A DNA stretch of 64,000 nt from Oryzias latipes (lineage: Eukaryota > Chordata > Actinopteri > Beloniformes > Adrianichthyidae). The first letter of the stretch is position 1. Each line of letters opens with the position of its first letter. The notes under the pieces are model-generated. The model had not been told where the DNA came from and made no database searches. It saw only the letters and a list, made by a program, of their open reading frames with translations. The DNA is taken from assembly GCF_002234675.1 (NCBI RefSeq), contig NC_019867.2:3986001-4050000 (forward strand), written 5' to 3'. The position numbers were made by a program, and so were the translations under genes. Positions 16,308 through 60,101 of this stretch are shown piece by piece.

Positions 16308-16726
16308 GGCTTCTGCAAAAGTCTGCAAGAACTAGTGTCCATCAATATACAGTGCTATAAAAAAAGAATAATAGTGAGCATGTGTCCGAACTCCGAATGG
16401 GGTTGAAATCCAAAGGACTGGATAGTCCTGCACTATGTATTCTTTTAGGGGTTAAGGAGGAGTTGGGGAATTCTGACATGGCCTCAGTTCATGTTCATAT
16501 TTTGGTTGGTTACCGTGGTTTCGTACTGTATTCTGCATTCTGCAAGAAAAGAAGAGAGGATGTCCTAATGTCCTTATTCTGTTTCCTTCAGCAGGTGTGT
16601 GATCCAGCTTCTAGACTCGCATGCATTGATGACAAACTTCTCCCCATCTTCATCCACCTCCTGTCAGCTGTGAGGATCTTTAAAGCAGAGTTTCCCCCCC
16701 ATAGAGAGGACTGCAAAAGGGACACC

Positions 16727-19700
16727 ATGCGGCACATCCACGTGGAGCTGGCCCACAAAAAGGCCCCACTAGAGCTTCCAGCCCAGGAGGGGGACCTGCC
16801 ACCGACCGCAGCCCCAACAAACGGCCTTGACCCCGGGGTCCGAGCTGGGGCACTCAGGCATTTTGGTCAGGAGGAGTTGCGCTTACAAAAGGTCTACCAG
16901 CTCTCCATTTTTTCGCAGATGGGGGGGTTTTCTACCTCTGCGGGATCGTACAGCGATTCCCAACAGAGGCAGCAGAGAAAGCGGGGTGTGGAAGAGACAC
17001 AGTTGACTCACAAGCACTCCCACCTGGACGACTCCACGGACGGTCCGGTGCTGCAGGGAGGGGTGTTGTGTGGCTCAGCTCCAGCTCTCGGCATTGGGAT
17101 GGGGCTAGCAACTGAGCCAGGGGAGCCCGGGTCCCCGTATTCTTACATGCAGTTGGAGTCTGAGGGGGGGCTGTCTCCCAGATCTCCACCTCTCTCCCCA
17201 AGCCACACCCCTTCCCGGCGCTCGTCTCACTGCAATCGCGAACGTCCAGTTGCCGATGCGTTTGCCCCACTCTCTCCTAAATCGCCCCCCATGGGTGACC
17301 CCCATGGCCATATCTGTGATCAGGGCCATTCCTTCACAAGCTCAGTCAGAGTTGAGACTACCAACGGGAGCCGCACACCCACCCACCCAATAGGAAGTCC
17401 CGCACATGATGGCTACACTACTGGCTCGTCTGGAGGCCAGCCGACCCCCCACCTATACGAAATGCCCACATACGAGTCTCCAAACCCTGCCAGCCCCACC
17501 AGTCCTCCGGGTCCTTTCTCCCCCCCACACCACACAGAGCTGCAGGAACCAGGGGTGGCCACCGAATGGGATGCTGGACTTGAATCTTCCCCACCTGAGC
17601 GAAGTGCCACCCACACGGCCACCTCCAACGGTCTGGCCTCCTGGGAGAAGACGCCCTGCAGTAACGGGCACCGCCTTTTCTCTGGAGGCCACGTCGCGGC
17701 AAAGAAGAGACTGCTCTCGCCGAGCGAGACAAACGACTCGTTATCGGAGGACGAGGGCCCCTCCACGTCAAAGAGGAGCAGGCTGTCGCTGCTAACGTCA
17801 GGACCGGGCCCGGCGTCGTGCCGCAGCACTGATGCTAAAGCCGCACCGTACTGGAACCACCTGCTGCCGACGGCACGGGAAATGCCTAAGGTCAGAAAAT
17901 CTAACATCTTTTTCTTCTCATTATGCTTCCAGACAGGAGATGTAAAATAACAAAAGTTAATCTACTTCATGAAAAAAAAGGGGTTAATATTGGATTCTCC
18001 TCAAGTTTAGACAAAAATTTAGAGTTTATCACCAAACTAGAAACGGCAGCATCTTCAACAGGTTTCTACTGTTCTATTCCATCCCAAAAAAGGGAGCTTG
18101 AAAAGCAGAAAATGAAGTGTTTTCCTAATGAAAGTTGCTTGTCAGTAGATTCAGATTAGTAAAAAAAGAACCCTGGGACTTCTGAAGTCAGGTCTGAGGC
18201 CATCTGTGTGACAGCTGAAGCTCAGCTGAATTTGGCTCATGTGACAGAAAAACGATCCTCAATTAAAGCGTTTTAGTGGCTCACCCAAAGTCCGGTCCTG
18301 AACCCATCTGACAGGCTGGGATGAGACCTCAACTGGAGGTTCATTTACTATTCATGCAAAACTTTAAAATGGTTTCAAGTGAAAATTCTCCAAACATAAA
18401 TGAGAATTTGAAATTTGGTTTCTCTGAGGCCTGTGATGCAAAATGATCAAGAAAATATACAGAAAAGTGTAACAAAAAAATTTTTTTTGTCTTGGATTTT
18501 CTTAAATGAATAATAACACTAGATGAGCATGTTATTCAAATCTCACTCTCTTTAATTCAATATAACGTCAAAAGGAAAGAAAACAAACATTCCTGCCTTT
18601 CGTGTTTGCATCAGATTTATTTAATTAGGACCCTTTTTCTGCTAGTCAGGGTTTGAATGTTGAATAATTTAGTCTGACCGGTTAAATTAAATCACCAACA
18701 TTTCAAACAAAACTCACTTGTGTCTGTTTTTACTGATCATTTTGTTACTAATTTGATAATTTTACAAGTCTTGTTGTCTGGATATTATTCTGAAGACGAT
18801 AATTTTCTACTATGCAGTTGTTCAGATTATGGATATAAATTGCCCTGAAAAAAACAAACGAAAAAAAATAAAAAATTAAGCCTACATAACTGTAACAGTG
18901 ATAGAATAATTAAATCAAATAAAGTTTACATGCGTCATCCATGAGTTGTAGAATTATCTAAATTTATGTATAAAATTAATTTTATTTGCAATTATTATTT
19001 TACCTGTTTAAACCCCGAAGAGCCCAAAAACAAATGTTTTGGGCTTTTGAAATTAATGTAAAAGTTAATTGGGTAGCATGAATTAACAGCGGCTAAATGA
19101 AAATCACAATATTTTTTTTTAAATAAATAAAAAACATAAAAAAGAAAAATCTGGCCAAAATCGACCCCATTTATTTCATGGTTCAGGATATTTTAGAGTG
19201 AATTGGTGCCAAAGTCGACTTCATTGACAGTCGGAGCAGAGTTCACTGAGAAGTATAAAGCTTTTTGACAAAGAAAACTTTGTAGAGTAGACCAACAGCA
19301 GTGAGAACGCTGTCGAAGTCATGTTGGTCAAACATCTGCTGGCCTTGGATTTGCAGCCAAGGCCGAGGCGTAAATCAGCTCATAGGACATCAAGAGCGTG
19401 AATGGACGGCTCACTTTCACACCGTGCTGGAACAGGCACAGCAGCTCCAGAACAAAACTCATTGAGGGGGGGGTCCATTGTTCCCGACAGGGGTGTGCTC
19501 TGAGGCATGGAAACGTTGGGATGTATACAAACAAACGTTTGGACAGACATTATGCTTAAACTGGTTCTGGAAGTGAATTGGTAGTTTCTGAGCATTAGAG
19601 GACCAGAAAAGCTTTTAGTGCGACTTTCAGGCAGAGGGGGGGGGTCGCTGGCATTACAGGTCAGTGCATGCGAGAGGGATGGTAGATAAGCAGATGAAAA

Positions 19701-39930: not shown

Positions 39931-40394
39931 GTTTTGTTGTTAGTGATGTTCGTAGAGATTTAAGCTCGTGCCGGTTTCGCAGCTGCGGATTGGTCCCATT
40001 TTTTCTCCCAGGATGCAGTTCGCCTCCTCAGTTTCTTTCACTTTTGTTTTTGTTTTTAAATGTTGAAGCTGCGCACAGAAAACGACACGGTACTGTGAAT
40101 ATTTTGATATAAACTGATGTATGTGACTGAATTGAGGAGTATAAGATAATAAAATATAAAGGCGTTGTCTGCATAAATACATTGTTGTGATGGAAGAAGT
40201 GAAAGAAGCGCGAAATCGAAAGTACAATTCTCCCAGCCTTTTGTCCCCTGAATTAGCTGAATGACCATTTATTGTATGTAAGAAAATAATTTAGCTGCAT
40301 TAAAGTGAAACCTCTAAGTGTTAAAAAATAAACGGACTTACCTGAAATATACCTTGTTGCAGGTGGATAATTCCAAGCTGCCTTCTTTGCCACC
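39930..40394 (+). promoter_or_regulatory. ERAP1: ERAP1 promoter/leader region with IRF-type motifs
   Basis: A CCAAT box in reverse (GGATTGGTCCC, about 39,986-39,996) and a GAAA-rich reverse-strand phrase (AAAAGTGAAAGAAACTG, about 40,030-40,050) lie here. So does GAAATCGAAA (40,212-40,221), an exact GAAANNGAAA interferon-response core. A splice acceptor (CTTGTTGCAG|GTGG) near 40,361-40,362 suggests that the 5' UTR is split, with the first exon inside this region. ERAP1 is interferon-inducible in mammals. Induction here is inferred from motif and position only. Confidence 0.5.
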
Positions 40395-43300
40395 ATGTTT
40401 CCTCTCCTGCTCCTACTCTTTGCTCTGCTCCCTTCATCTCATGGAGCTCAAATACCAAGTCCAGACCAACCCAAGGAGATCCCAGTAGCCACAAATGGCC
40501 AGCTGTTTCCCTGGGACCGCATGAGACTCCCCAAAACCATCTCCCCACTCCACTATGACCTGAGCCTCCACCCCAACCTCACCACCCTGGACTTCACCGG
40601 CGTCGTTCGCATAGACCTGGACGTGCACGAAGACACCAGCGTTGTGGTTCTCCATGCAAAGAAAATGTACATATCAAGCGCGCTGTTGCTCGCGCCAGCG
40701 GGCACGAGGGTCCTCCAGGTTCTGGAGTATCCTCGCTTTCATCAGCTCGCCTTGATGTCTGACGTGGTGCTGACCAAAGGCAGGAAGTATGAGGTCCAGC
40801 TGGAGTTTGCTGCAAACCTGTCTGACAGCTACCATGGGTTCTACAAGAGCAGCTACCGCACCAGCACCGGGGAGGTCCGGTAGGTCCACAAAATCCAGAT
40901 TTGGCCCAAAATAGTGTCATTTAGAGCAAAAACTGGAGTTATTGTGAGAAAGAAAAAAGAAAACTAGAGTATTTTATGCTTTACTTCTCCCAGGGTCATG
41001 GCATCAACACAGTTTGAGGCGACCTTTGCTCGTGGGGCCTTTCCCTGTTTTGATGAGCCCGCCTTCAAAGCCAACTTCACCATCCGGATTATTAGAGAGC
41101 CACGCCACATTGCCATTTCCAACATGCCCAAGGTACGCCAACACGTCTTTTCCTGATGGCTTTAACACCAATGTCGTGAAGGGGATTGAGCGAATCTGTC
41201 ATTACGTAGTCACTATATGCTAGTCATTTCTTAAAAACATTTCCCTTCTTTTTTGGCTCAGTTGCTGGACTTTTTCTCATCAGATAATCTTAAGGATTTG
41301 CATTTCTGCTCCTTTTGTGCTTCATTTTTTAACACACCCTTCTCAGGTGAGGACAGTGGAGTTACCAGGCGATCTACTGGAGGATCACTTTGACACGACG
41401 GTGAGGATGAGCACCTACCTGGTGGCCTACATCGTGTCTGACTTCCAGTCGGTGAGCAGGACCACCCAGCACGGAGTGAAGGTGAGGAGAAGACCCCAGC
41501 CGGGTCGTCGCTCTTTTTCTTCCACTGGGATGTTCCAGACACACAACTGTTTATCGTTTTGTAAAACTAATCACTGGCCATGATGCCCTTCAGATTTCCA
41601 TCTACGCTGTTCCAGAGAAGATCAACCAGACAGCCTTTGCACTGGATGCTGCTGTTAAGCTGCTGGACTTCTATGATGACTACTTCGACATTCCTTACCC
41701 ACTTCCCAAACAGGGTCAGTGGGAAGTTTCAGTTGTAGATGAGGGAGGTTTAGATTTACGGGAGGAAGACAGATCAAATGGATGAATAAGAGAGATTGTT
41801 TCAAGCATCACATGTACTCTTGTGACAATGATCTCACTCTTTGGTCGTTACAAAGTTGTGTTTATGTTCTCGGGCCCGCAGACTTGGCCGCCATCCCTGA
41901 CTTCCAGTCTGGAGCCATGGAGAACTGGGGGCTGACCACCTATCGAGAGACCGGCCTCCTCTTCGATCCGGACAGGTCCTCCGCCTCCGACAAACTGGGC
42001 ATCACCAAGGTGATCGCTCATGAGCTGGCTCACCAGGTGGGTGATCTTTCCGTGATGGTTTTGCCTGCAGTTTTTGAGTACTGGTGGTTAATATGCATTG
42101 TGGTTCTAGTGGTTTGGAAACCTGGTGACGATGGAGTGGTGGAATGACCTGTGGCTCAACGAGGGCTTTGCCAAGTTTATGGAGTTTGTCTCCCTGGACA
42201 TCACCTACCCAGAACTGCAAGTGGTGAGAGCGTGATACCCATTTCATTGAAAACCTTCTGTGATTTAGAGCTCATTTCTGATAAATGATTTATTCTGTCT
42301 TCCCCTCAGGATGACTTCTTCTTGGGAAAATGTTTCGAAGCTATGGAGGTGGACTCGCTCAGCTCCTCCCACCCAGTCTCCACCCCCGTGGAAAACCCCA
42401 CACAGATCCAGGAGATGTTCGACGATGTGTCCTATGACAAGGTCAGGCTGACTCTGCCAGAACTTGGATTGGACGCTCTGAAGGCCTCAGTGAATTAAAT
42501 GGTTTTAGCGTGTCGTCTTTTAGGGAGCCTGCATTCTGAACATGCTGCGTGACTTTCTCACTCCTGAGGCCTTTGAGATCGGCATCATCCGATACCTGAA
42601 GCGCTTCAGCTATCAGAACACTGTCAACAGCCACCTCTGGGAGAGCCTGACTGACGTGAGTGACATGGAAAACTTTATTTAGTGTCTCAAATGTGGTTCA
42701 GATCAAATGGGTTGTTATTTCTCTTCCGATTATCTTTTAATCTGTTTTTAAAGGATTCCCATTGGTCTTTCAATCACGAATATGCTGTTTTCAGCTAAAA
42801 TCAATAAACCTTTACTTTTTTTTTTAGAAATACTTTCTGCAGATCGACAGTAGTTCATTAGAAATTGAACCCCTTCTCATTGCTAAGAGTTCTCTACCTG
42901 CTCTCCCACTAGCTTACAGTCTCTCACATCACCATCCTAACATAACTGGTGAAATAAAAATTGCAAGCAATGTTTAATCCAGATACAAACAAGGCGTACA
43001 TGAATCTAGTCATCTACTAGTAGATGTATGAGAATGGAAATGCCCGCCCAACGTTTTTTTCTGTCAAATATAATCTTTTTCAAACACAATTTGAATAAAG
43101 AAATAGTCAGAAAGTGAGTTTTAAACCATAATTTTCTGATATATGTCCTCCGCCGTCACACAAAAAGCAACAAGAACACGTTAAAAACACCAAACACACC
43201 ATTTTCATCAGAGTGGGTCTTTGGTTGAAAACTACATGGATGTAAAGCAGCAGATCATTCATAACCATGTAGTAACAGCTCTGTTCAGTGTTTTTCCTCT

Positions 43301-46300
43301 GCTTTTATACTGTATTAAAAAAATGTTTATGCTTTTTCCAGCAGATGACTGCAGGTTGCTTAGTAATTAGGAATAAGAAATTTTAATAGTTCAAAGATAC
43401 AATAAATAAAAAATATAAATTTTTCTGTTATTTTCCATCTGTAGACTTTACTATAATTTTTCAAATTTATTTTGTTGATAAAACCCTTTTGGTTTTCTAT
43501 CAAACTTTTAAAGGATATGTCCTTAGTCAGTGATTAAATGATAGAAAATGTAAAAACTTTATTCTGATCCTTTTTTTATGTTTGTTTGTGAATTAAATAA
43601 CTGGCCTGCAGGTTAGTGCTGTTCTTGGTTGTAGTAATGTAGTTTTAAAAAAAATCTTTTTTGAGCATGGGTGCACTTCTTCACTGATAACATTCACAAG
43701 GCTATCTAAAAATGAAGAAATAAAAAAATCTCTAGTTTTAATCATATGCATTTTTATCTAAACAAAAATCTGTTATGATATTTAATATTTTAAATACTGA
43801 GTACGATGTTTAGATGAAGACAGAGCTGATAACCTGGCAGTGGTAAATGTTTTCTAGACTAATTAGGAACATTGAATCATTTCCCATGGTGCATCTGATG
43901 CTTTCTCATGGCATACTGGTTGTTAAACACTGTACAATCTTTGTTCTGCTGTTTAAGACTTTGCTGCATGTTCTCAGTTTGTTTAATCTACTTTTTTACT
44001 CCCATCCTGTGCTTTTTGCCTTCAGATCTGCAGCTCAGATGATTTGGACGAAGGCCGAATGAAGCACAAAGAGTTTTGCTCCAAACGCAAAGACGAGTCT
44101 GGAGCCTCTGTGAGTTTTCCTGCTTTTAAAAAGAATATCAGGTGGAAAAAAACACTCTGACCTCATGTGGCTTTGCTGATTATCAATGTTAACTATTTTT
44201 TAGCCTTCACCGTATTCTTTAAATCTGATTTAAAGTTACAATGTGAAGTTTCTCAGCGCGTTTGATGATTTTGAGCTTGAGGGATGTGGACTGATCGGCA
44301 GAAGTGGTACTCGGGTGATGAGCTGGATGTCAGGGCCATCATGGACACCTGGACGCTGCAGGAGGGCTTCCCGCTGGTCACCGTGGAGGTCAAAGGGCGG
44401 GAGGTCAGGCTGAGTCAGGAGCGCTTCCTTAGGACGGACAACCCCTCCCTCACTGAAGGGTAATTAACCCATAAGTCATTCCTAGATAAATCCCTTTTCC
44501 TTTATTCATTTACTAAAGGCAGAACAACAGCAGCCATAAAAGTAGAAACATTCTAGCCCACATAGCTGATATTTTTCCTGCATGTGTCCATTTGAACAAG
44601 ATTGGAAGAGACGTTCAGAAAAACATCAGTAAATGGACTGAAACACTGTGAGGCTGTAAACGATCAGATTTCTTTTCAATTTCATGTAAATTTGTCCACA
44701 TTCCAAAGTACCGCAGTAGGATTTCTCAACCATTGTTTTGGCGGTGTCACATAGTGCATCTGTTCACCTGCAGGATGTTTCCTCTGCTTCATTTATGGCA
44801 TTGACCTGGAATGAATTATGAGGCCATAGAATAAGTTTTGTTTTTTTGTTTTTAATAAAGGAAAGGACTTTGTTGGCCAAGGAGTATTTATTTATATTAG
44901 CGCCTCACCGTCTCCGGAGACTATGGTCAAGCCAAGAAGCTTCATATTGGATACGAGAATATCTTAAAAAAATCGGATTTCTTTTGTGTTTGTATAAACC
45001 AATAGAGACAGAGTAAAAACTATTTTATTTCCTTGTAAGGGTTTGATCAATCTGTGTGTCGGCAGGTTCTTGTGGCAGATCCCGTTGACGTACATGACCA
45101 GCGCCTCCCGCTCCGTCCACCGTTTCCTTCTGAAAACAAAATCTGGTGAATGTTTGCAGACTCTTCCTCCCAAACACGACTAGATATGTGAGCTCCCCCC
45201 CTCACCCTATGTCTCCTCCCTTTCAGACGTCCTGTACCTGCCAGAGGAGGTGGACTGGGTGAAGTTCAACGTCAACATGAGCGGCTACTACATGGTCCAC
45301 TATGGCGGTGGGGGCTGGAACTCCATCATCTCCCTGCTGCATCACAACCACACAGCCCTGAGTGGCAACGACCGGGCCAGCCTGATCCACAACGTCTTCC
45401 AGCTGGTCAGGTCCGTCTCCTGCAGGAACACACTTCCTGTTTCATCTCCTCTGGGCGGAGTCACAGTTCATCACTGAGTCTGGTCACTTGTTATGTGCAG
45501 TGTAGAGAAGGTGAGGCTGGACACGGCCCTGGAGCTGTCCCTTTACCTGTCCAGAGAGACGGAGATCATGGCGGTCTGGCAGGGCTTTGGGGAACTTGTA
45601 CCTCTCTACAAACTGATGGAGAAGCGAGACATGCCTGAGCTGGAGAACCAGATGAAGGTTTGTGGCGTGTCACAACGGGAGCATAAACAAAACTCTGTAC
45701 TTTAAAGGTTTGAGAAGAATTGAAGAGCAGAAGGAAATAGATAAAAATATCAATGTTCACTCTAGGATTTACAATCTTCAGGAATTTGTGTTCAAATTTT
45801 GCAATGTGAGTTATTTATCATCATAATATGAACAAGTAATTATAAACTGTGAAAATTATAGACAGCAAAAAAAGTTTTTTTGTAGTATTTATGGTAGTTT
45901 TTCTTCCTCTAAATCAGTGTTTTTCGATGGTCAGGTGTGCTGTGGGAAATTGCCCTCATTAACTGATCTAAAAACATTTTCCATCTCCAGGATATCAGCT
46001 CTGTGTTCATCCAAACAGGCCCTGATAAAACACTGAGTAGTTAGGAATATAAAAGATCGTAAAATATTTTTTTCTTTGTGTTTATTTGATTCTATCAAAG
46101 ACATTTTGTTAAGAATGACGGTACAGCGATTTAGCCGTTGCGTCAGCTGTTTTTGGAAAAGTCCCGCCCCTTTAACTGTCTCCACCAATCATTCTTGAAA
46201 GCTTAATCACACATCGTCAGTCTGACCAATCAGAAGTGGTTAAAGTCTTTACTTCCTTGTTCCGATTTAGCTCATAAAGTCTCTCAGTTCCAACAAGCTT

Positions 46301-49300
46301 GTCTTTAGCGGTGTAGCTTTCCGCAGAATCCGGTGTCAGACCGTGGAGAAAGTGAACAAAACAATGAAGCAAAGAAACATTTTCATCTCCCATAAACATC
46401 TCCCATGATGCATTGGGTTAAAGTGACCGCATCTTAGCGCACACTGAGTCTTCGTGTTAAACGTCTTGAAACCACAATGAACACACATCAAACAGTTTTT
46501 GAATATTTAACTTAACTTTTATTGTGTCTTTTAGAAAAAACAGCTGCAACTTTCAGCTTTTTCTGCCACAATTATCACAAAAATGCACGTGAGATAGCAG
46601 AGGGACTGTAGATCCATACAGACTATGAGTTTCTCCTTTTTTTTTTTTTTTTTGGATGCTGGTGTGCCGCGGGATTTTAGTCAAGGTTAAAGTGTGCCGT
46701 GGCTCAAAAAAGGTTGAAAAACACTGATCTAAATTTACCATCAGTTTTTCTATCTGTTCTTTTCTATAGATCATTTTGTAATCATTTTTTCATATGTTGC
46801 TGCTTCAATGTCTTTTTCTTTACATGTGCAAATTTAAAAAAAGAAAGGAAATTTCATAAATTAAGTTAACAATTTAAACAAGGAAATAATTATTTAAAAA
46901 AAATAATCTATCATTAGTTAACAGATCGTAAAGTTGTGTCTTTCTCATGCTTACAATTGAAAAAGGTTGAACTTCACTGATTGACGTCCCTGCTAGTGCA
47001 GATCAGTGGATCCCACATTGAGGGGTAAACCTGCGTCCGCTCGTCTCCTTCAGAGCTTCATCGTGGATCTGTTTCGGGGGCTGATCGATCAGCAGGAGTG
47101 GAACGACTCTGGCTCGGTGTCCCAGCGAGTGTTGAGGAGTTACCTGCTGCTGTTCGCCTGCGTCAGGAATTACAGTCCCTGTGTGACCAAAGCCACGCGG
47201 CTTTTTAACCAGTGGAGGGATTCTGATGGCACCATGAGGTCAGAGGTCACAGCACTGTGTAAAACCGTTCCGTCTTTAGTCCGAACTGACACTCTTGTCG
47301 CTTTAGCCTCCCTGTGGACATCACCATGGCCGTGTTTATGGTTGGAGCTCGCACACGGGAGGGGTGGGACTTCCTGTATGAGAAGTACCGCACGTCTCTG
47401 CAGATGTCGGTGAAGAGCCGCTTGAAGTGGGCCATGGCGGTAACAACGATGACGGACAAGCTTCAGTGGTGAGTCTCAGCAAATGAGTACATCGGATTTC
47501 AAGGTTACTGGACTGAAGCTAAACCTCTCCTCCTCTGTAGGATGATGGAGCAGAGCCTCAACGGGGAGGTGATGAAGACCCAGGACCTCCCAGATGTGAT
47601 CATCTCTGTCGCCAGGAATCCTCATGGCTTTAAACTGGCGTGGGACTTCCTCAGAACCCACTGGCACACGCTGATTCAGAAGTCAGTGAACTCATCACAC
47701 ATGAACATTTCAAACAGCAGGGATGGTCCCAAAACGGAGCAGAGTTATGGCAAATACAATAATATAACATTACTGTATATAAACGGGCATCTCGATGCTT
47801 CATTGATGTGCTTCGTTATGCGGCACAATTCTAGCCAATCATTTTACCTTTCCAGTTATTGTGGGCGGGCTCATATAAGGATGGGTGAGGCCGTGAGGGT
47901 GGGCGGAGCTTCAGTCAAAATGCTGAAGGCAGAGCACACATCTTACATCAAAACTTTCTAATTCAGCGTCCTGCTGAACAAGAGCACTTTGAAGAATTCT
48001 CAGAAAAAAGATCGTTGTCATGGTGATGAGCGGTAAAATCCGTGCTCTCTGGAAACAGATGACTGTCAGAAAGAAGGAAATCGAGCATCTGAGACACTTT
48101 CAAACGCTCTCCTGTGCGCCTGTGTCGCTGCTTTGTCACACTTAAATGTTTTTGGAAAAAGTTGGTGATGTGTTTTTCCATTTTTTGGGGAACCGATTCG
48201 AGTACCGTTTAGGCACCGGCTCTGTTTTTCAAAGTACCAGTTCAGTATCGGATAAAATCCCAACGATACCCATCCCTAATCCACATCAATGCTTTAAAAC
48301 CAAATGATACAAAATAAACTTTATTCTGAGCACATGACACATTACCAACAGTTACTTTACAATTCTGAATCATCCAGTAGTACTTTTTGTAGATTTTGTA
48401 TAAACATCAACATATTTTGGTCTTCTGAACATATTTACATTATTTTCTTTAGTCAGATAAAATAAGGATAACAATAAAAAAGGTTATTTTTGTCTGATGA
48501 AGGAAAACATATCATTGCATTTATTTAATCAAGTTCTATAAAAAAAAACCTTTACTCCTCTGTAAATAATTTAGTAATAATTAAAAAATGTGTTGCTAAA
48601 ACATAAAAGAAATCAGAAAAAATTAAGATCTTTCTGATAATTTTCTATCAGAGGCCAAAACTTTGTTCCCAAACTGAATGTCATGTGCTGGATTAGTAGC
48701 AAAATGGCTTTCATGAGTAGAATTAAAAGAGGAAAAGTTGTTTATGGTTTGCCTGATTTTCTGGTAGCAGGACACCTCGGTTAGAATCCCGCCTGGACCC
48801 TTTCTGTGTGAAGTTTGCATCTTCTTCTAGTGCACGTATCTCTGATTAGTGCCTCTAAATTAGAAAACTAGAATGGGCTCCAGCAATTATTCCTAGCCAG
48901 AATGGAACAGGATAATCAACGGATGGGCTAAACCTAAAAACCAACTCAGTGCTGCTGTTTTCTCCAAAGAGGAGGTCAAGTTTGGAGTTAAATTCAATGC
49001 ATTAACATTATTCTGTGTTTAACTGCAGGTTTGACCTGGGATCCAGCACTATATCCCACTTGGTAGCCGGAGTAACCAACCAGTACTCCACCAGAGAGAT
49101 GCTTCACGAGGTCAGAGATCATTTCAGGCCACTTTTGCTAGAGGACCTGGCAGATCTAATACTTTTGTGTGTCTGTGTTGGTGTGTTTTTTGTTTATTGC
49201 TGTGCTCTTGCGTTCAGATACGAAGCTTCTTCGACTCCCTGACAGAAGAGGCGGGTTCTCAGATGAGGTGCATCCAGCAGAGCTACGAGACCATCGAGGA

Positions 49301-52918: not shown

Positions 52919-52948
52919 GAGAATGAAGAAATGAGCGGGGGGGTGACC

Positions 52949-52957
52949 AAGATGGCG
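52949..52957 (+). promoter_or_regulatory. YY1-like site at the L1 5' end
   Basis: AAGATGGCG sits about 15 nt from the element's first base. It matches the YY1 core, which also lies at the extreme 5' end of mammalian L1 and guides start-site choice there. The functional parallel is inference. Confidence 0.5.
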
Positions 52958-53097
52958 CTCTGAACAGTCGTGTTTGGCTGAGCTCTGCAAACCTAACTGT
53001 TTTTTGTAATAATACACGGTGAGCAAAGACCTTTTCTTGATTTTTTTTTTACCTCTTTACAATTTCTTTATACTTTTTGCATAGTTCTCAAAGCAAT

Positions 53098-54066
53098 ATG
53101 AGCAAGGCCGAGAAGAGAAAGACGGAACTCAAGAAATCGCTAGCGAGTGTTGGCTCTGTTAGCAAACCTGCTAACGTTAGCCAACCTGCAAAGCCGTCTG
53201 CGTCGAGTAAGACTACTGATGCTAAAGTCAAATTAATTGACTCAATGCATGACTACATGGAGGCAGTTTCGGAACCATTCCTAATGGAAGAAGAAGACTT
53301 CCCTGCTCTTCCCTGCACACCCACTGCTTCCCCAGCTGGTAAGCTGAGAAAAGTCACAGAAACGGAGACAGAGGCTGTTCTTTCTCAACTCTCGTCACTT
53401 ACACAATTGATAAACTCGAGGTCAGACACTCTGGAAAAGTTAATTAGCGGCAACTCCAGAGAGATCTCTGAGATGAAAAAAGCTGTGCAGGAGAACTCCA
53501 TGCAAATCTCAGCTGTAAAAGGCTCCGTTGATGTCGTTTGTACTGAAATTAGTGACATGAAGAACAGAGTGATCCACGCTGAGGCACAACTGGAGAAATA
53601 TAAAACAATCGTGGAAACACAGGAAAAAAGGATCTCCCAGCTGGAAAGCTACTCCCGCCGCTGGAATCTGAAACTTCGCGGTTTGGCTGAGAAAGAAAAT
53701 CAGAACGTGCGGCAAGAAGTGATCCAGATCTGCCAGTCTGTTCTACCGGAGGCGAAAGACAAACTCCCCGATGTTGTGGATACGGTGCACAGACTCGGCC
53801 CGAAGAGACCGAACAACAACCAACCGAGAGGGATCATCATCCAGTTTACTGCGAGGATTCACCGCGATGCTGTCTGGCGCGCTGCAAAGAAATCTGGCTT
53901 CCTGAAAGAACACAACCTGAGGATGTCGGAGGATCTGTCTGCTGAGGACCGCGAACGGAGAAACCAACTGTGGCCGGCCGTGGAGAAAGCCAGGAGGGAG
54001 AACAAGCTGGCGTTCTTTGTTGGAGGACGTGCCTTTGTGAATGGTAAAGAAATCCTGCCGCCTTAA
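53098..54066 (+). CDS. L1 ORF1p, nucleic-acid chaperone
   Basis: 322 residues from the ATG at 53,098 (MSKAEKRKTELKK). The frame is open a little further upstream, but only with a TTG, so this ATG is chosen. The N-terminal third is Ser/Lys-rich, followed by a heptad-rich coiled coil (about residues 80-190, with repeated S.L..L, EISEMK and EISDMKNRV blocks). An RRM-like core follows (RRWNLKLRGLAEKENQNVR), then a basic C-terminal domain ending near KLAFFVGGRAFVNGKEI. This order is that of L1 ORF1p, which trimerises and coats element RNA. No stop or frameshift was seen. ORF2 begins 496 bp later in a different frame. Confidence 0.93.
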   Translation: MSKAEKRKTELKKSLASVGSVSKPANVSQPAKPSASSKTTDAKVKLIDSMHDYMEAVSEPFLMEEEDFPALPCTPTASPAGKLRKVTETETEAVLSQLSSLTQLINSRSDTLEKLISGNSREISEMKKAVQENSMQISAVKGSVDVVCTEISDMKNRVIHAEAQLEKYKTIVETQEKRISQLESYSRRWNLKLRGLAEKENQNVRQEVIQICQSVLPEAKDKLPDVVDTVHRLGPKRPNNNQPRGIIIQFTARIHRDAVWRAAKKSGFLKEHNLRMSEDLSAEDRERRNQLWPAVEKARRENKLAFFVGGRAFVNGKEILPP

Positions 54067-54562
54067 CGAAGGCTGCAGATGTGAAAGCTGGATCTGAACG
54101 TTTTTTGCTATTTTCCACATTTGTCAAAAATGATACTGTTGCTTATAATTTGATTTTATTTGAGCTCATAAGCTATTGCATTCAAGCTGCTACTTTTTAT
54201 TTTAATTTTTATCTTGCTTTAATTTTGTTTTTGATATAACATTATAATGTTATTTTAAGTATTACATTATACTTAAATGTGAATCAAGTAGCAACATTGT
54301 GGGTTTTATTTTTATTTATTTTTTTCTTAAAACATTTACTCTTATGAGTAAGATGGGACTAATAACGCCCATCACTTTGGTGTTATTTCATAAGGAAATA
54401 ATTATTGTTAGGGTCTTAGTTCACAGCTTTTTTTGTAATGGTTTGCAGGTTCTTATCCTCTTTCTGTTCCTAAGCGACCAAAAATCCTTAACTCAACTTC
54501 TTTTTTCTTCTTCTTTGGTCTAAATATCTTTTGTTTTTGTTCTTTTTTTCTATTTCAACTTC

Positions 54563-57500
54563 ATGTCTTTATCCATTATTTCTTTAAATGCGAGAGGTTT
54601 AAGAAACAATGTTAAACGTAAAGCCATTTTTTTATTTTGTAAGCAGTTTAATTCAGATTTTTGTTTTATCCAAGAGTCCCACTCAACTGAACAAGACAAA
54701 TCCTTCTGGAGGTCACAGTGGGGAAATGATGTGTGGATGTCACATGGTACAGAGCGAGCTGCTGGTGTCTGCATTCTCAAAAACAGATTCAATGGAAAAG
54801 TTTTGCTATCTGACAGCGATAAAGATGGTCATTACATTTTTATGATACTTGAAGTAGCCCATTCCGTCTTTATTCTAGTCAACGTGTACGGGTTCAACTC
54901 TCAAACAGAAAATAATCTTCTCTTCAATAGACTAGAAACACGTTTATTGCACTGGCTGTCTAAATACCCAAAGTCTTTTATAATATTTGGAGGGGATTTT
55001 AACACAGTTTTTGATAATTCTATGGATAGATGGCCTCCCAGGAGTCCAGACTCTAACTCTCCTATAAAGTTGTTTGCACAAAATTTAGATTTAATTGATT
55101 CTTGGAGAGACTCGCATCCAAACCAAAGAGCTTATACATGGTGTAACAAATCACAGACCAGACACTCACGCATTGATTTCTGGCTTACTTCTAAAGACTT
55201 AAAAAATGTTAAAACAGATATTCATGCCACACCGCTTTCAGACCATAAAACAATTCATCTAACCGTCCCTTTGTCGAGCTCCTCTGGCACCAAAGCTTCA
55301 TATTGGAAGTTAAACAGTACCATTCTTGAGCATCTGGAGGTGATTTCTGAAACTCATCGCTTAATAAAACTTTATTGGAACAAAGCACTAGCTGAACACT
55401 CATTCTGTAATAATTGGGAACTTTTGAAATACGAACTTGGTAAATTTTTTAGAAAATATAGCTCTGACTTAACAAAAAAAAGAAGAGCTGTTGAGACAGA
55501 TGTAATACAGAAGATTGCTCTTCTTATATCTAAGCCAACAGATGTCCTAGATGAAACGGATAAAACAGCTTTAATAGACTTACAACACAAGTTAGATGAC
55601 ATTTATAAGCGCAAAGCAGAAGGAGCGTTTATCCGATCTAGGAGAAGGTGGATTGAAGAAGGAGAGCAGAACTCTGCCTATTTTTTCAGGCTAGAGAAAC
55701 ACCAGTCCAATAGTAATTCTATTTCACAATTAAATATTAATGGGGTCATTTCTGATGATAGAAGTACCATAGCAAAATATTGTTCTGATTTTTATAGTAA
55801 ACTCTATTCTTCCAACTATTGTTCAACATCTGCCCTTACCTTTCTTAACACTGTCAATAATATTACTCCAGTGAGTGAAGCGGACAGAGTCTGTTGTGAT
55901 GATGTCATCTCTTTGAATGAGGTTACAGATGCTATAAAATATCTGAAAATAAATAAATCTCCTGGAACAGACGGCCTTACTGCCGAGTTCTATAAACAGT
56001 TTTCTGACAATTTAGCCCCATTTTTATTAAAAGTTTTTGAAGAAAGCATTAACAAGGGTGCACTCCCTCCCACGTTATCTCAGGGACTGATTACCTTGAT
56101 CCCTAAACCGAGAAAGGACCCTCTTTCCTTAGATAACTGGCGACCAATCACCTTATTGAATTGTGATTATAAGATATTGGCTTTGATTCTTGCAAATAGA
56201 ATAAAGCCAGTCTTAGATACAATTATTGATGAAAATCAGTCTGGATTTATGCAGAATCGTCATATCTCAAACAATATTAGATTAATTTTAGACATACTAG
56301 ATTACTCAGAACTCGTGCAGGATGACAGTCTCATTCTTTTTCTAGACTTTTATAAGGCCTTTGATTCTTTAGAACACAATTTTATTATTGCTGCTTTAAA
56401 TAAATTTGGTTTTGGTCAATTCTTCTGCAATGCTGTTCAAACTTTATATGTCAATAGTAATAGTTCTATAAAACTCGCCAGCGGAACTTCTCCTAGATTC
56501 TTCTTGAAACGTGGGGTAAGGCAGGGATGCCCCTTGTCAGTCTATCTGTTTCTTCTTTCTGTTCAACTCCTTAACCTACATATCAAACTCAGCCCATTAA
56601 AAGGTTTAATTGTGGCTGAGAGGGAAATATTCATAAGTCAACTAGCAGATGACACTGCTCTCTTTCTCCGAGACGCTTCACAAGTAGCTGTGGCGATTAA
56701 TATCATCCAGTCCTTTTCTAAAGCTTCAGGACTTACCCTTAATTTAAATAAATGTGAAATTCTGCCTGTTAAAAACTGTTTGCTTACATCTATCCAAGGT
56801 ATTCCTGTAAAAACATCTGTTACGTACCTTGGTATTCAAATCACTAAAGATATGCAATCCAGATGTTCTATAAATTTCTCTCCAATAATAGATAAAACCA
56901 AAAAAAACCTAAACCAATGGCTGCAAAGAGATTTGTCTTTGAAGGGCAGAGTTCTGCTTACGAAAGCAGAAGGAATCTCTCGTTTGACGTATGCAGCTCA
57001 ATCTCTACAGGTTAATAACACAGTCTGCAATACAATTAATAGAATATTATATAACTTTCTATGGAGAAATAAAACTCACTATATCAGAAAATCTGTTATT
57101 TTAAATACCTCTGATAAAGGCGGTTTAAATTGTATTGATTTTACTGCCCTTAACAATACACTCAAGGTAATCTGGATTAAGAAATATCTTAATAACCCCA
57201 CATCTATCTGGAACTTTATTCCACATTTTGTATTTTCAAAGGTAGGAGGCCTTAACTTCCTGCTGTGCTGTAACTATAGTATTCCAAAAATCCCTTTGAA
57301 ACTGTCAAATTTTCATCAACAGGTTCTCTTAGCCTGGGCTCTGATTTACAAACACAACTTTTCTCCACAGAGTTGTATTATCTGGAATAACTGTAATATT
57401 GTCTATAAAAGGAAAACTCTGTTTTTAAATAATTGGTTTAATAATGGTATAATTTTCCTCAAACAATTATTCAAAGAACCTGGATTATTATATAACTACT

Positions 57501-58288
57501 CAGATTTCACAAAGCAGTATAAAGTACCAATAACTCCCAAAGAATTTGCAGTAGTGTTTGATGCCGTCCCATCTGGGATTTGCATGTTATTCAGGGGTTT
57601 CTACAGCGCTCCTCCTCTGACTCTTCATCCTCCTGATGTGCTCAAATCTCCTCTGGGTAATTTCTGCTTCACTTCCGCTAAACAGTTGAACTCAAAAATC
57701 AGAGCTTTGTTTCAAGATAATTTAGTTTCTGTTCCATCAGCTATCTTTTATTGGGCTAATTTCACTTCTAACATTGATTGGAAAAAAGTCTGGTCTTTAC
57801 CACAAAAATACTTCTTAACAAATAAAGTCAAAGAAATCTCTTTTAAACTCCTACACAGATTTTATCCAGCAAAGCATTATTTAACTAAATTTAAGGCTGA
57901 CATAAACACCAGTTGTACTTTCTGCCAGAAACAACCTGAAACCTGCTCTCATTTATTCTGGTCTTGTGAATTTACATACAGATTTTGGAAAAACATTCAC
58001 AAATTTATCACCGATTCTATTTTTGCTGACATACAACTTTATTATAAAAACATACTTTTTGGTTTTCATAGCTTTGATGTCAAAGACCGTGATGCTTTCT
58101 TTTGTGTAAACATGGTATTATTTATCGCTAAATTTCATATACACAAAAGAAAATTTTCCAATAAAAAACCGGATTTCTTTGTGTTCAAACTGGAACTGCA
58201 GCATTATTTAAACTTAATTTCTGCTTCAAAAAATACAAAAGCTCAAAAAACAATTAGCATCTGTAAATCTTTTGGACTGCTGACATAG
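54563..58288 (+). CDS. L1 ORF2p, endonuclease and reverse transcriptase
   Basis: 1,241 residues with no internal stop, starting MSLSIISLNARGLRN. The N-terminal APE-type endonuclease (about 1-235) keeps its landmarks: N9, E38 (IQESHS), VYGFN, GGDFN, SRIDFWL and SDHK. The reverse transcriptase (about 465-760) shows SPGTDGLTAEFY, NWRPITLLNCDYKI, ENQSGF, LDFYKAFD with D595, GVRQGCPLSVYLFLL, and the catalytic dyad D696/D697. The dyad reads LADD rather than the more usual F/YADD. A C-terminal Cys/His cluster (CTFCQKQPETCSHLFWSC) matches the zinc motif of these proteins. It nicks target DNA and reverse-transcribes the element's RNA at the nick. Two residues differ from what I would expect, LADD and the V in PLSVYLF; either may be family-normal or damage. 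Confidence 0.95.
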   Translation: MSLSIISLNARGLRNNVKRKAIFLFCKQFNSDFCFIQESHSTEQDKSFWRSQWGNDVWMSHGTERAAGVCILKNRFNGKVLLSDSDKDGHYIFMILEVAHSVFILVNVYGFNSQTENNLLFNRLETRLLHWLSKYPKSFIIFGGDFNTVFDNSMDRWPPRSPDSNSPIKLFAQNLDLIDSWRDSHPNQRAYTWCNKSQTRHSRIDFWLTSKDLKNVKTDIHATPLSDHKTIHLTVPLSSSSGTKASYWKLNSTILEHLEVISETHRLIKLYWNKALAEHSFCNNWELLKYELGKFFRKYSSDLTKKRRAVETDVIQKIALLISKPTDVLDETDKTALIDLQHKLDDIYKRKAEGAFIRSRRRWIEEGEQNSAYFFRLEKHQSNSNSISQLNINGVISDDRSTIAKYCSDFYSKLYSSNYCSTSALTFLNTVNNITPVSEADRVCCDDVISLNEVTDAIKYLKINKSPGTDGLTAEFYKQFSDNLAPFLLKVFEESINKGALPPTLSQGLITLIPKPRKDPLSLDNWRPITLLNCDYKILALILANRIKPVLDTIIDENQSGFMQNRHISNNIRLILDILDYSELVQDDSLILFLDFYKAFDSLEHNFIIAALNKFGFGQFFCNAVQTLYVNSNSSIKLASGTSPRFFLKRGVRQGCPLSVYLFLLSVQLLNLHIKLSPLKGLIVAEREIFISQLADDTALFLRDASQVAVAINIIQSFSKASGLTLNLNKCEILPVKNCLLTSIQGIPVKTSVTYLGIQITKDMQSRCSINFSPIIDKTKKNLNQWLQRDLSLKGRVLLTKAEGISRLTYAAQSLQVNNTVCNTINRILYNFLWRNKTHYIRKSVILNTSDKGGLNCIDFTALNNTLKVIWIKKYLNNPTSIWNFIPHFVFSKVGGLNFLLCCNYSIPKIPLKLSNFHQQVLLAWALIYKHNFSPQSCIIWNNCNIVYKRKTLFLNNWFNNGIIFLKQLFKEPGLLYNYSDFTKQYKVPITPKEFAVVFDAVPSGICMLFRGFYSAPPLTLHPPDVLKSPLGNFCFTSAKQLNSKIRALFQDNLVSVPSAIFYWANFTSNIDWKKVWSLPQKYFLTNKVKEISFKLLHRFYPAKHYLTKFKADINTSCTFCQKQPETCSHLFWSCEFTYRFWKNIHKFITDSIFADIQLYYKNILFGFHSFDVKDRDAFFCVNMVLFIAKFHIHKRKFSNKKPDFFVFKLELQHYLNLISASKNTKAQKTISICKSFGLLT

Positions 58289-58478
58289 ATTTACTCTCGC
58301 ATTTTCTCTTTTCTCTTTATTTTTTTGTTTCTTTTTATTTTTTATTCCCTTTTGTGTTTATTATTAATAATTAGTATTTTTTAAAGAATGCAACATGTTT
58401 GTTCTGTATTCAGAATTCTATTGTACATTATATGTGCATAATTGTTGTATTTTCTTATTTTGTAAGTTGCAATTGTTC

Positions 58479-58511
58479 AATAAAAAAAAAAAAAAGTAAA
58501 AAAAAAAAAAA
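58479..58511 (+). promoter_or_regulatory. L1 polyadenylation signal and A-rich tail
   Basis: AATAAA runs directly into an A tract of about 28 nt, interrupted by GT, that ends at the second copy of the target duplication. This marks the 3' end of the insertion. Confidence 0.9.
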
Positions 58512-58535
58512 GAGAATGAAGAAATGACATCTGAG

Positions 58536-58682: not shown

Positions 58683-60101
58683 ATGGCTGAGAGAGCTGCT
58701 CTTCTTGAATCTTACCTGAAGTGTCACGTTTGTTCAGAGACTTTCAATGATCCTGTAACTCTGAGCTGCAACCACAACTTCTGTTGGAGCTGCCTGCAGA
58801 AGTTCTGGGAACAAACTCAGAACAAAAACTGTCCCATCTGTAAAAGAAAAACTTCTAAAGATCATCCTGCTGTGAACCTTTGCCTGAAGGAACTTGCTGA
58901 CTCGTTTGCTGGAAGACAGAAATCTGAATCATCGGAGACAAAAACAGGAGAGCAGAAGTTCATGGAGGTCTGCAGGAAACATCCAGGAGAATCCAAACTG
59001 TTCTGTAAAGACGAGCAGAGAGCTTTTTGTCCTTTCTGTGAGTTTTTTCAGCACCAGAGTCACAAAGTGGTTCCTGTAGAAGAAGCAGTCAGAGAGCTGA
59101 AGGAGGAGCTGAAATCTGACTTAAAGTCTCTGCAGGACAAGAAGATCAAATACAAAACAATGGAGAAAACATACAATCAGATGATTCAACACTCCAAGAA
59201 GCAGCTGCTGTCCACAGAGACACAGATCAGAGCAGAGTTCAACAAGCTCCAGCAGTTCCTGAAGGAGGAAGAGGAGTCCAGACTGGCAGCTCTGAGGGAG
59301 GAAGAGGAGCAGAAGAGGAAGACTGTGATGGGAGAGATGAAGAGGATCCAGGAGCAGATGTCCTCTCTGTCAGAAAGTATCAGTGCTGTTGAAGCAGAGC
59401 TGCAGAAAGACAAGGAGACGTTCCTCAGCAGTTGGAAAGACACTCAGAGCAGAGCCAGAGCCCAGAGCTCGCTGTCAGACCCACAGCTGCTCTCAGGAGC
59501 TCTGATAGATGTGGCCAAACATGTGGGCAACCTGTCCTTCAGAGTCTGGGAGAAGATGAAGGAGAAGGTCCACTTCAGTCCGGTCCTACTGGACCCAAAC
59601 ACTGCAAGCAGATATCTTTATCTGTCTGATGATCTGACCAGTGTGAGATTTGGAGAAACTTCTCAGCAGCTTCCTAACAATCCAGAGAGAAACATGTATT
59701 TTGTTTCTGTTTTTGGCTCTGAGGGATTCAGATCAGGGAAACACAGCTGGGAGGTGGAGGTGGGAGATCATCCTCACTGGAACATTGGTGTGACTAAAGA
59801 GTCTGTTAAGAGGAAGGGAGAGAGTTCTATTTCACCAAAAGATGGAATCTGGTGTTTAGATCTTGAGAATGGAGAATACACAAACGGTGTTGGTCAGACT
59901 GTCACTGTGACCAAGAGTCTCCAGAAGATCAGAGTCCAGCTGGACTATGACAGGGGGGAGGTGTCCTTCTACAACCCTGAAGACGTGACTCACATCTACA
60001 CTTACAAAGACACTTTCACTGAGAAACTTTACCCGTATTTCAATGTTGGAGAATCTGGAGAAGCAAAAACCTCTAAACTCCAAATCTGTCCGACTGATTG
60101 A
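58683..60101 (+). CDS. Intronless TRIM E3 ubiquitin ligase (RING, B-box, coiled coil, PRY-SPRY)
   Basis: 472 residues in one exon. The ATG at 58,683 (MAERAALLESYLKCHVC) has A at -3. The upstream frame stays open but has no ATG. RING finger C14-C53 (CHVC...CNHNFCWSC...CPIC) has all eight zinc ligands. B-box C97-H127 (CRKH...FCKDEQRAFCPFC...HQSH). Glu/Lys-rich coiled coil about 135-265. Complete PRY-SPRY about 295-472 (LDPNTAS, HSWEVEV, LDYDRGEVSFYNP, YPYFNVG). The layout is closest to the fish TRIM35-like / zinc-binding protein A33-like genes; the exact orthologue cannot be set. Such proteins attach ubiquitin, and many act in antiviral signalling. Absence of introns suggests an ancient retrogene or the normal single-exon form of this fish group. 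A full-length L1 lies just upstream. Confidence 0.93.
   Translation: MAERAALLESYLKCHVCSETFNDPVTLSCNHNFCWSCLQKFWEQTQNKNCPICKRKTSKDHPAVNLCLKELADSFAGRQKSESSETKTGEQKFMEVCRKHPGESKLFCKDEQRAFCPFCEFFQHQSHKVVPVEEAVRELKEELKSDLKSLQDKKIKYKTMEKTYNQMIQHSKKQLLSTETQIRAEFNKLQQFLKEEEESRLAALREEEEQKRKTVMGEMKRIQEQMSSLSESISAVEAELQKDKETFLSSWKDTQSRARAQSSLSDPQLLSGALIDVAKHVGNLSFRVWEKMKEKVHFSPVLLDPNTASRYLYLSDDLTSVRFGETSQQLPNNPERNMYFVSVFGSEGFRSGKHSWEVEVGDHPHWNIGVTKESVKRKGESSISPKDGIWCLDLENGEYTNGVGQTVTVTKSLQKIRVQLDYDRGEVSFYNPEDVTHIYTYKDTFTEKLYPYFNVGESGEAKTSKLQICPTD

Follow-up and report, generated by a model that had tools for sequence, protein, structure and literature searches.

Human LINE-1 (ORF2p structures 8sxt and 9k6g; ORF1p structure 2ykp) encodes two open reading frames (ORFs) with an APE-type endonuclease, a reverse transcriptase (RT), and a C-terminal zinc-binding region, and its copies end in an A tail and are flanked by target duplications. 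Among teleosts, Swimmer-1 is named as an L1 lineage in passages of PMC4746887 and PMC8550402, the title of a 1998 paper presents it as a low-copy teleost LINE similar to mammalian L1, and a medaka Swimmer-1 sequence is cited in PMC4746887. According to a passage of PMC8550402, medaka also carries a copy of the L1-Tx1 family at chr3:2856757-2860916.

In the present study, a 64,000-bp stretch of the medaka genome (contig C9:3986001-4050000, hereafter the window) was found to contain a 5577-bp element (52935-58511) between identical 16-bp duplications. It occupies a previously empty site and possesses the 16-bp duplication, an A tail, undamaged ORFs, and few private changes. With a probability of about 0.93, it is a LINE-1 of the autonomous type and of full length, from a medaka family that is small and young, and target-primed reverse transcription placed it just upstream of one TRIM gene in a tandem cluster. 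The medaka family provides a native fish L1 for further work.

All the features listed above for human LINE-1 are also present in the medaka element, which differs in its distant sequence (the match to human LINE-1 ORF2p gives 331 bits over ORF2 residues 3-884), its 5' UTR of ~160 bp, its 496-bp spacer between the ORFs, and the LADD of its RT motif C. The target site looks atypical as well: on the nicked strand it would read TTCTC/ACC, which is not A/T-rich, whereas the targets of mammalian L1 are of the A/T-rich type. The likeness to Swimmer-1, described as a teleost LINE of low copy number that resembles mammalian L1, follows the title and passages cited above.

The L1-Tx1 copy on chr3 comes from the same species and the same broad L1 group and has an EN-RT-type ORF2; we located an L1 ORF2 at about C3:2856986-2860696, inside the interval given in the passage of PMC8550402. 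However, it shares 26% amino-acid identity with the window L1 over ORF2, and no DNA match between the two was found at E 1e-5, so the chr3 copy represents another family. Assignment of the window L1 to the Tx1 group as a target-specific member was rejected, because the target duplications differ between copies and do not point to one fixed target. No relatives of the element were found among the searched collections of other genome contigs and viral contigs.

Structure and coding capacity of the element

The duplicated 16-mer GAGAATGAAGAAATGA is located at 52919-52934 (5' copy) and 58512-58527 (3' copy), on the plus strand like all parts of the element. These two exact copies are its sole matches in the window at up to two mismatches, while 100 shuffles gave a mean of 0.15 such matches and none of them (0/100) reached two. 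Directly after the 5' copy lie two bases, GC (52935-52936), which fall outside the 5' end of the family. None of the six remaining full-length copies has them, and they resemble additional bases gained at the junction. The 5' UTR (52937-53097) starts with GGGGGGGTGACCAAGATGGCG. The same start, a G run followed by TGACCAAGATGGCG, was found in all seven full-length copies examined, with variation in the length of the G run (four to seven G), and the 5' end of the window copy is therefore complete. At the other end, a 3' UTR (58289-58480) is followed by an A-rich tail of the form T A14 GT A14 (58481-58511), into which an AATAAA motif (58479-58484) extends. Searching with blastn revealed no further copies of the element in the window, except for 41 bp of the 3' UTR that match the tail in reverse orientation, and neither RNA families at gathering score nor tRNAs were detected in the window.

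ORF1 (53098-54066; 322 codons) and ORF2 (54563-58288; 1241 codons) are both open from ATG to stop, and the spacer between them (54067-54562, as delimited by the two ORFs) has a GC content of 28%. The ORF2 product matched Exo_endo_phos, RVT_1 (residues 513-760), and zf-RVT in Pfam, all above their cut-offs, which correspond to an endonuclease, an RT, and a zinc-binding C-terminal region. Its best PDB match was human LINE-1 ORF2p (E 1.1e-97), with R2 behind (E 1.1e-26), a ranking that holds among solved structures. By Pfam and these structures, the element has the APE-type endonuclease and the RT closest to L1 ORF2p that characterize the L1 clade. An ORF1p of the L1 type comprises a coiled coil, an RRM, and a C-terminal domain. 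The ORF1 product is a putative protein of this kind, with a weak match to LINE-1 ORF1p (PDB 2ykp; E 9.3e-06; residues 157-298); in Pfam, no L1 ORF1 family was recovered at E 1e-3, and coiled-coil families alone appeared, below their cut-offs.

The usual RT motif C is FADD. In the medaka ORF2 this motif reads LADD, and the human match has F in the first position. Eighteen of the 21 motif words of ORF2, including those with LADD and RQGCPLSV, are common to all six open ORF2 copies, and the other three, which are longer, vary among copies. Taken together, the structure agrees with the original prediction, which had described a perfect 16-bp target duplication, a complete 5' end, two ORFs open from start to stop, and endonuclease and RT landmarks. 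By analogy with L1 biology, an RNA starting at the G run of the 5' UTR would be translated into ORF1p and ORF2p, which would assemble, and ORF2p would then nick the target and copy the RNA there.

A YY1-like motif at the 5' end

A YY1-like motif, CAAGATGGCG (52948-52957), starts at the 12th base of the 5' UTR counted from the first G. The motif was found in 7/7 full-length copies examined, starting 9-12 bases from the first G according to the length of the G run. Among 20000 dinucleotide-shuffled versions of the 5' UTR, 3 contained it on either strand, a frequency that applies to a motif picked after being seen. According to a passage of PMC11602158, mouse Tf monomers have a YY1 site and the YY1 site of human L1 lies at nt 9-20; the reverse complement of CAAGATGGCG matches the mouse Tf monomer site at 10 of 12 positions, and the predicted medaka motif stands at the 5' end, where the human site sits. 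Among the matches listed from the open-access literature, no titles or abstract openings mentioned YY1 in L1 of fish or other non-mammals.

The likeness to the mammalian sites raises the idea that a YY1-directed start at the G run might be an ancestral vertebrate L1 feature and not a mammalian invention, which we regard as tentative and rather unlikely. The variation in G-run length (4-7) would be consistent with a start site that shifts slightly. If the YY1 motif were functional and inherited, a key feature of the L1 promoter would predate the split of fish and mammals.

Relation to other copies of the family

The original prediction proposed a search of the genome for near-identical copies. 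This search listed at least 48 family matches, the window copy included, with 40 of 408 candidates scored, and 17 of the 47 other listed matches were compared with the window copy. Seven of the matches listed are full length and include both ends of the element. The window, C6, C7, and C12 copies have two open ORFs of 322 and 1241 codons, as is thus the case for three of the six full-length copies besides the window copy. The C22 copy has ORFs of 310 and 1241 codons, the C16 copy is 5'-truncated with an open ORF2, and ORF2 is broken in the C14, C2, and C10 copies. This medaka L1 family is small and includes several full-length copies without damage; the window copy is not exceptional within it and is an ordinary young LINE-1.

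For ORF2, comparison of the window copy with the other five copies whose ORF2 is open gave dN/dS values of 0.12-0.24, indicating that the lineage evolved under constraint. The close pair of C7 and C12 copies gave a value of 0.71 (3 synonymous and 8 nonsynonymous codons), in line with changes that arose once the copies had been inserted. Target duplications of 10-17 bp, whose sequences differ by site, were recognized in 13 of 18 copies, and by the same criterion none was recognized in the C2, C10, C16, C8, and C14b copies. The family thus shows the A tail and the variable-length target duplications at dispersed sites that are characteristic of the L1 clade (13/18 copies, and the empty site described below). 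The 3' tails of the C7 and C18 copies contain 22 and 13 bases, respectively, that separate two A tracts ahead of the target duplication and resemble short 3' transductions, which would stem from other source loci.

Over 5546 bp, the window copy carries 8 private substitutions, comprising four non-coding changes, three synonymous changes, and one Leu to Ile change at ORF2 codon 1006. No private indels were found beyond the two 5'-junction bases. By its sequence the copy is intact, as had been proposed. Judging from its sequence, it may still be able to retrotranspose.

The window copy could nevertheless be young and open but dead in practice, because its promoter is silent, the host silences it, or a missense change disables it, and this explanation has an appreciable chance of being correct, somewhat short of even. 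It would fit the finding that the 8 private variants are carried by 0/17 other copies (6-17 copies cover each site), as well as the one private amino-acid change and unusual features of the whole family, for instance LADD where FADD is usual. However, the replacement of Leu by Ile is a conservative change located beyond the C-terminal end of the RT match (513-760), and the LADD and RQGCPLSV words are those of every open ORF2 copy.

The original prediction also suggested that the window copy might be a source element. It belongs to the four copies in which two full-length open ORFs were found, and the copy at C10:14255744 is 99.5% identical to it over 1321 bp, yet its role as the source of recent copies in this genome is very unlikely and the suggestion was rejected. 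None of the 17 other copies shares any of the 8 private substitutions, a test that is blind to daughters made before those changes arose. Likewise, the proposal that 3'-transduced flank might have been carried to other loci found no support among the 48 listed matches: outside the TRIM cluster, the flank 16-mer occurs at two places, and it adjoins none of the listed L1 matches there. The closest relative among the copies compared is the one on C14; its ORF2 is broken, and it has the appearance of a sibling of the window copy.

Insertion site, age and neighborhood

Across the genome (734,051,031 bases in 25 contigs), the 16-mer GAGAATGAAGAAATGA occurs ten times, with eight occurrences in C9:4.04-4.15 Mb (including the pair in the window), one on C12, and one on C20. 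At the six other C9 places, the joined flanks of the window element align gap-free through the junction, with 97.8-98.8% identity over 670-1302 aligned bases; a TRIM frame follows at five of them, and the sixth runs into an assembly gap. Because six TRIM paralogues keep a single 16-mer with uninterrupted flanks, the site is shown to have been empty before the insertion. Two pairs of these loci are identical over the compared stretch and a 16,467-bp repeat surrounds a 1000-N gap, so at least four of the six empty sites are distinct. In the simplest reading of these alignments, the insertion would postdate the duplication of the TRIM cluster.

The TRIM gene in the window (58683-60101, plus strand) is a single open frame of 472 aa with RING, B-box, and PRY-SPRY domains, as identified from the ORF list and Pfam. 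The L1 is in sense orientation to it, and 155 bp separate the insertion from the TRIM start codon further downstream. The leader of the empty-site paralogues is 155-157 bp long and nearly identical. The six paralogous TRIM frames are 95.3-98.9% identical. One TRIM paralogue frame, at C9:4133832, closes after 51 codons, and the other six checked, including that of the window, are open over 471-472 codons. We also observed base-identical 5857-bp stretches at C9:4062994-4068850 and 16,467 bp onward, flanking the 1000-N gap (4078053-4079052), which represent either a tandem duplication of very recent origin or an artefactual duplication in the assembly.

In a tree of nine copies of the element, the terminal branch of the window copy is 0.0017, and the window copy pairs with the C14 copy (support 92/91, below the 95/80 mark). 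In a tree of the flank (1.76 kb, comprising an upstream part and the leader), the terminal branch of the window locus is 0.0051, and its fork with the nearest paralogues has support of 80/80. Both terminal branches (0.17% for the element, 0.51% for the near flank) are upper bounds on the age of the insertion. The flanks are mosaic: the nearest paralogues are 4064177/4080644 upstream and 4094335 and 4152351 downstream, and across 3261 sites of the downstream flank, 41 differ for the latter and 73 for the paralogues that are nearest upstream. Over longer stretches upstream (4-8 kb), identity to the paralogues is 95.9-97.8%. The flank bound is therefore rough and may be about twice as large.

The genome analyzed here is evidently that of the Hd-rR strain. 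According to passages of PMC5705604, the Hd-rR and HNI strains differ by 2.455% SNPs and split about 18 million years ago, which gives a divergence of ~1.2% per lineage (half of 2.455%). On this scale, the age bounds correspond to roughly 2.5 (element) and 7.5 (flank) million years. Since both bounds lie below half the Hd-rR/HNI divergence, we expect HNI to lack the insertion, and at least one insertion of the family is probably younger than the split of these two Japanese medaka lineages. The same paper counts 407 regions in Hd-rR and 806 in HNI with a 1-10 kb insertion near the transcription start. With the window element, the possible strain specificity of an L1 that precedes an immune-type gene can be put to the test.

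The open ORFs limit neutral decay since insertion to at most ~0.47% (P = 0.05, assuming 0.1 indels per substitution), and this limit becomes 0.34-1.74% for assumed values of 0.15 to 0 indels per substitution. The identity of the target duplications was rejected as a clock because it is too weak, the 16-bp duplication being still identical in about half of cases at 2% decay per copy. That the window copy is old and owes its intact look to host-gene conservation or gene conversion is highly improbable: conversion would be plausible in a duplicated cluster with mosaic-looking flanks, but the six cluster paralogues holding the site lack the element, the copy most closely related to it lies on a different contig, and little change is seen in the non-coding parts as well, since 4 of the 8 private changes are non-coding. 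A recent insertion of this LINE-1, as originally predicted, is supported by the rough upper bounds, the six empty sites, and the comparison with 17 other copies.

Some other features were found elsewhere in the window. Exons of an M1 aminopeptidase resembling ERAP are present at 40371-47961 on the plus strand (Peptidase_M1_N above its cut-off, ERAP1_C below). A 529-aa open frame at 16361-17950 on the plus strand, with no Pfam match at E 1e-3, is probably a host exon. Finally, a TG dinucleotide repeat of ~104 units is located at 2385-2593.
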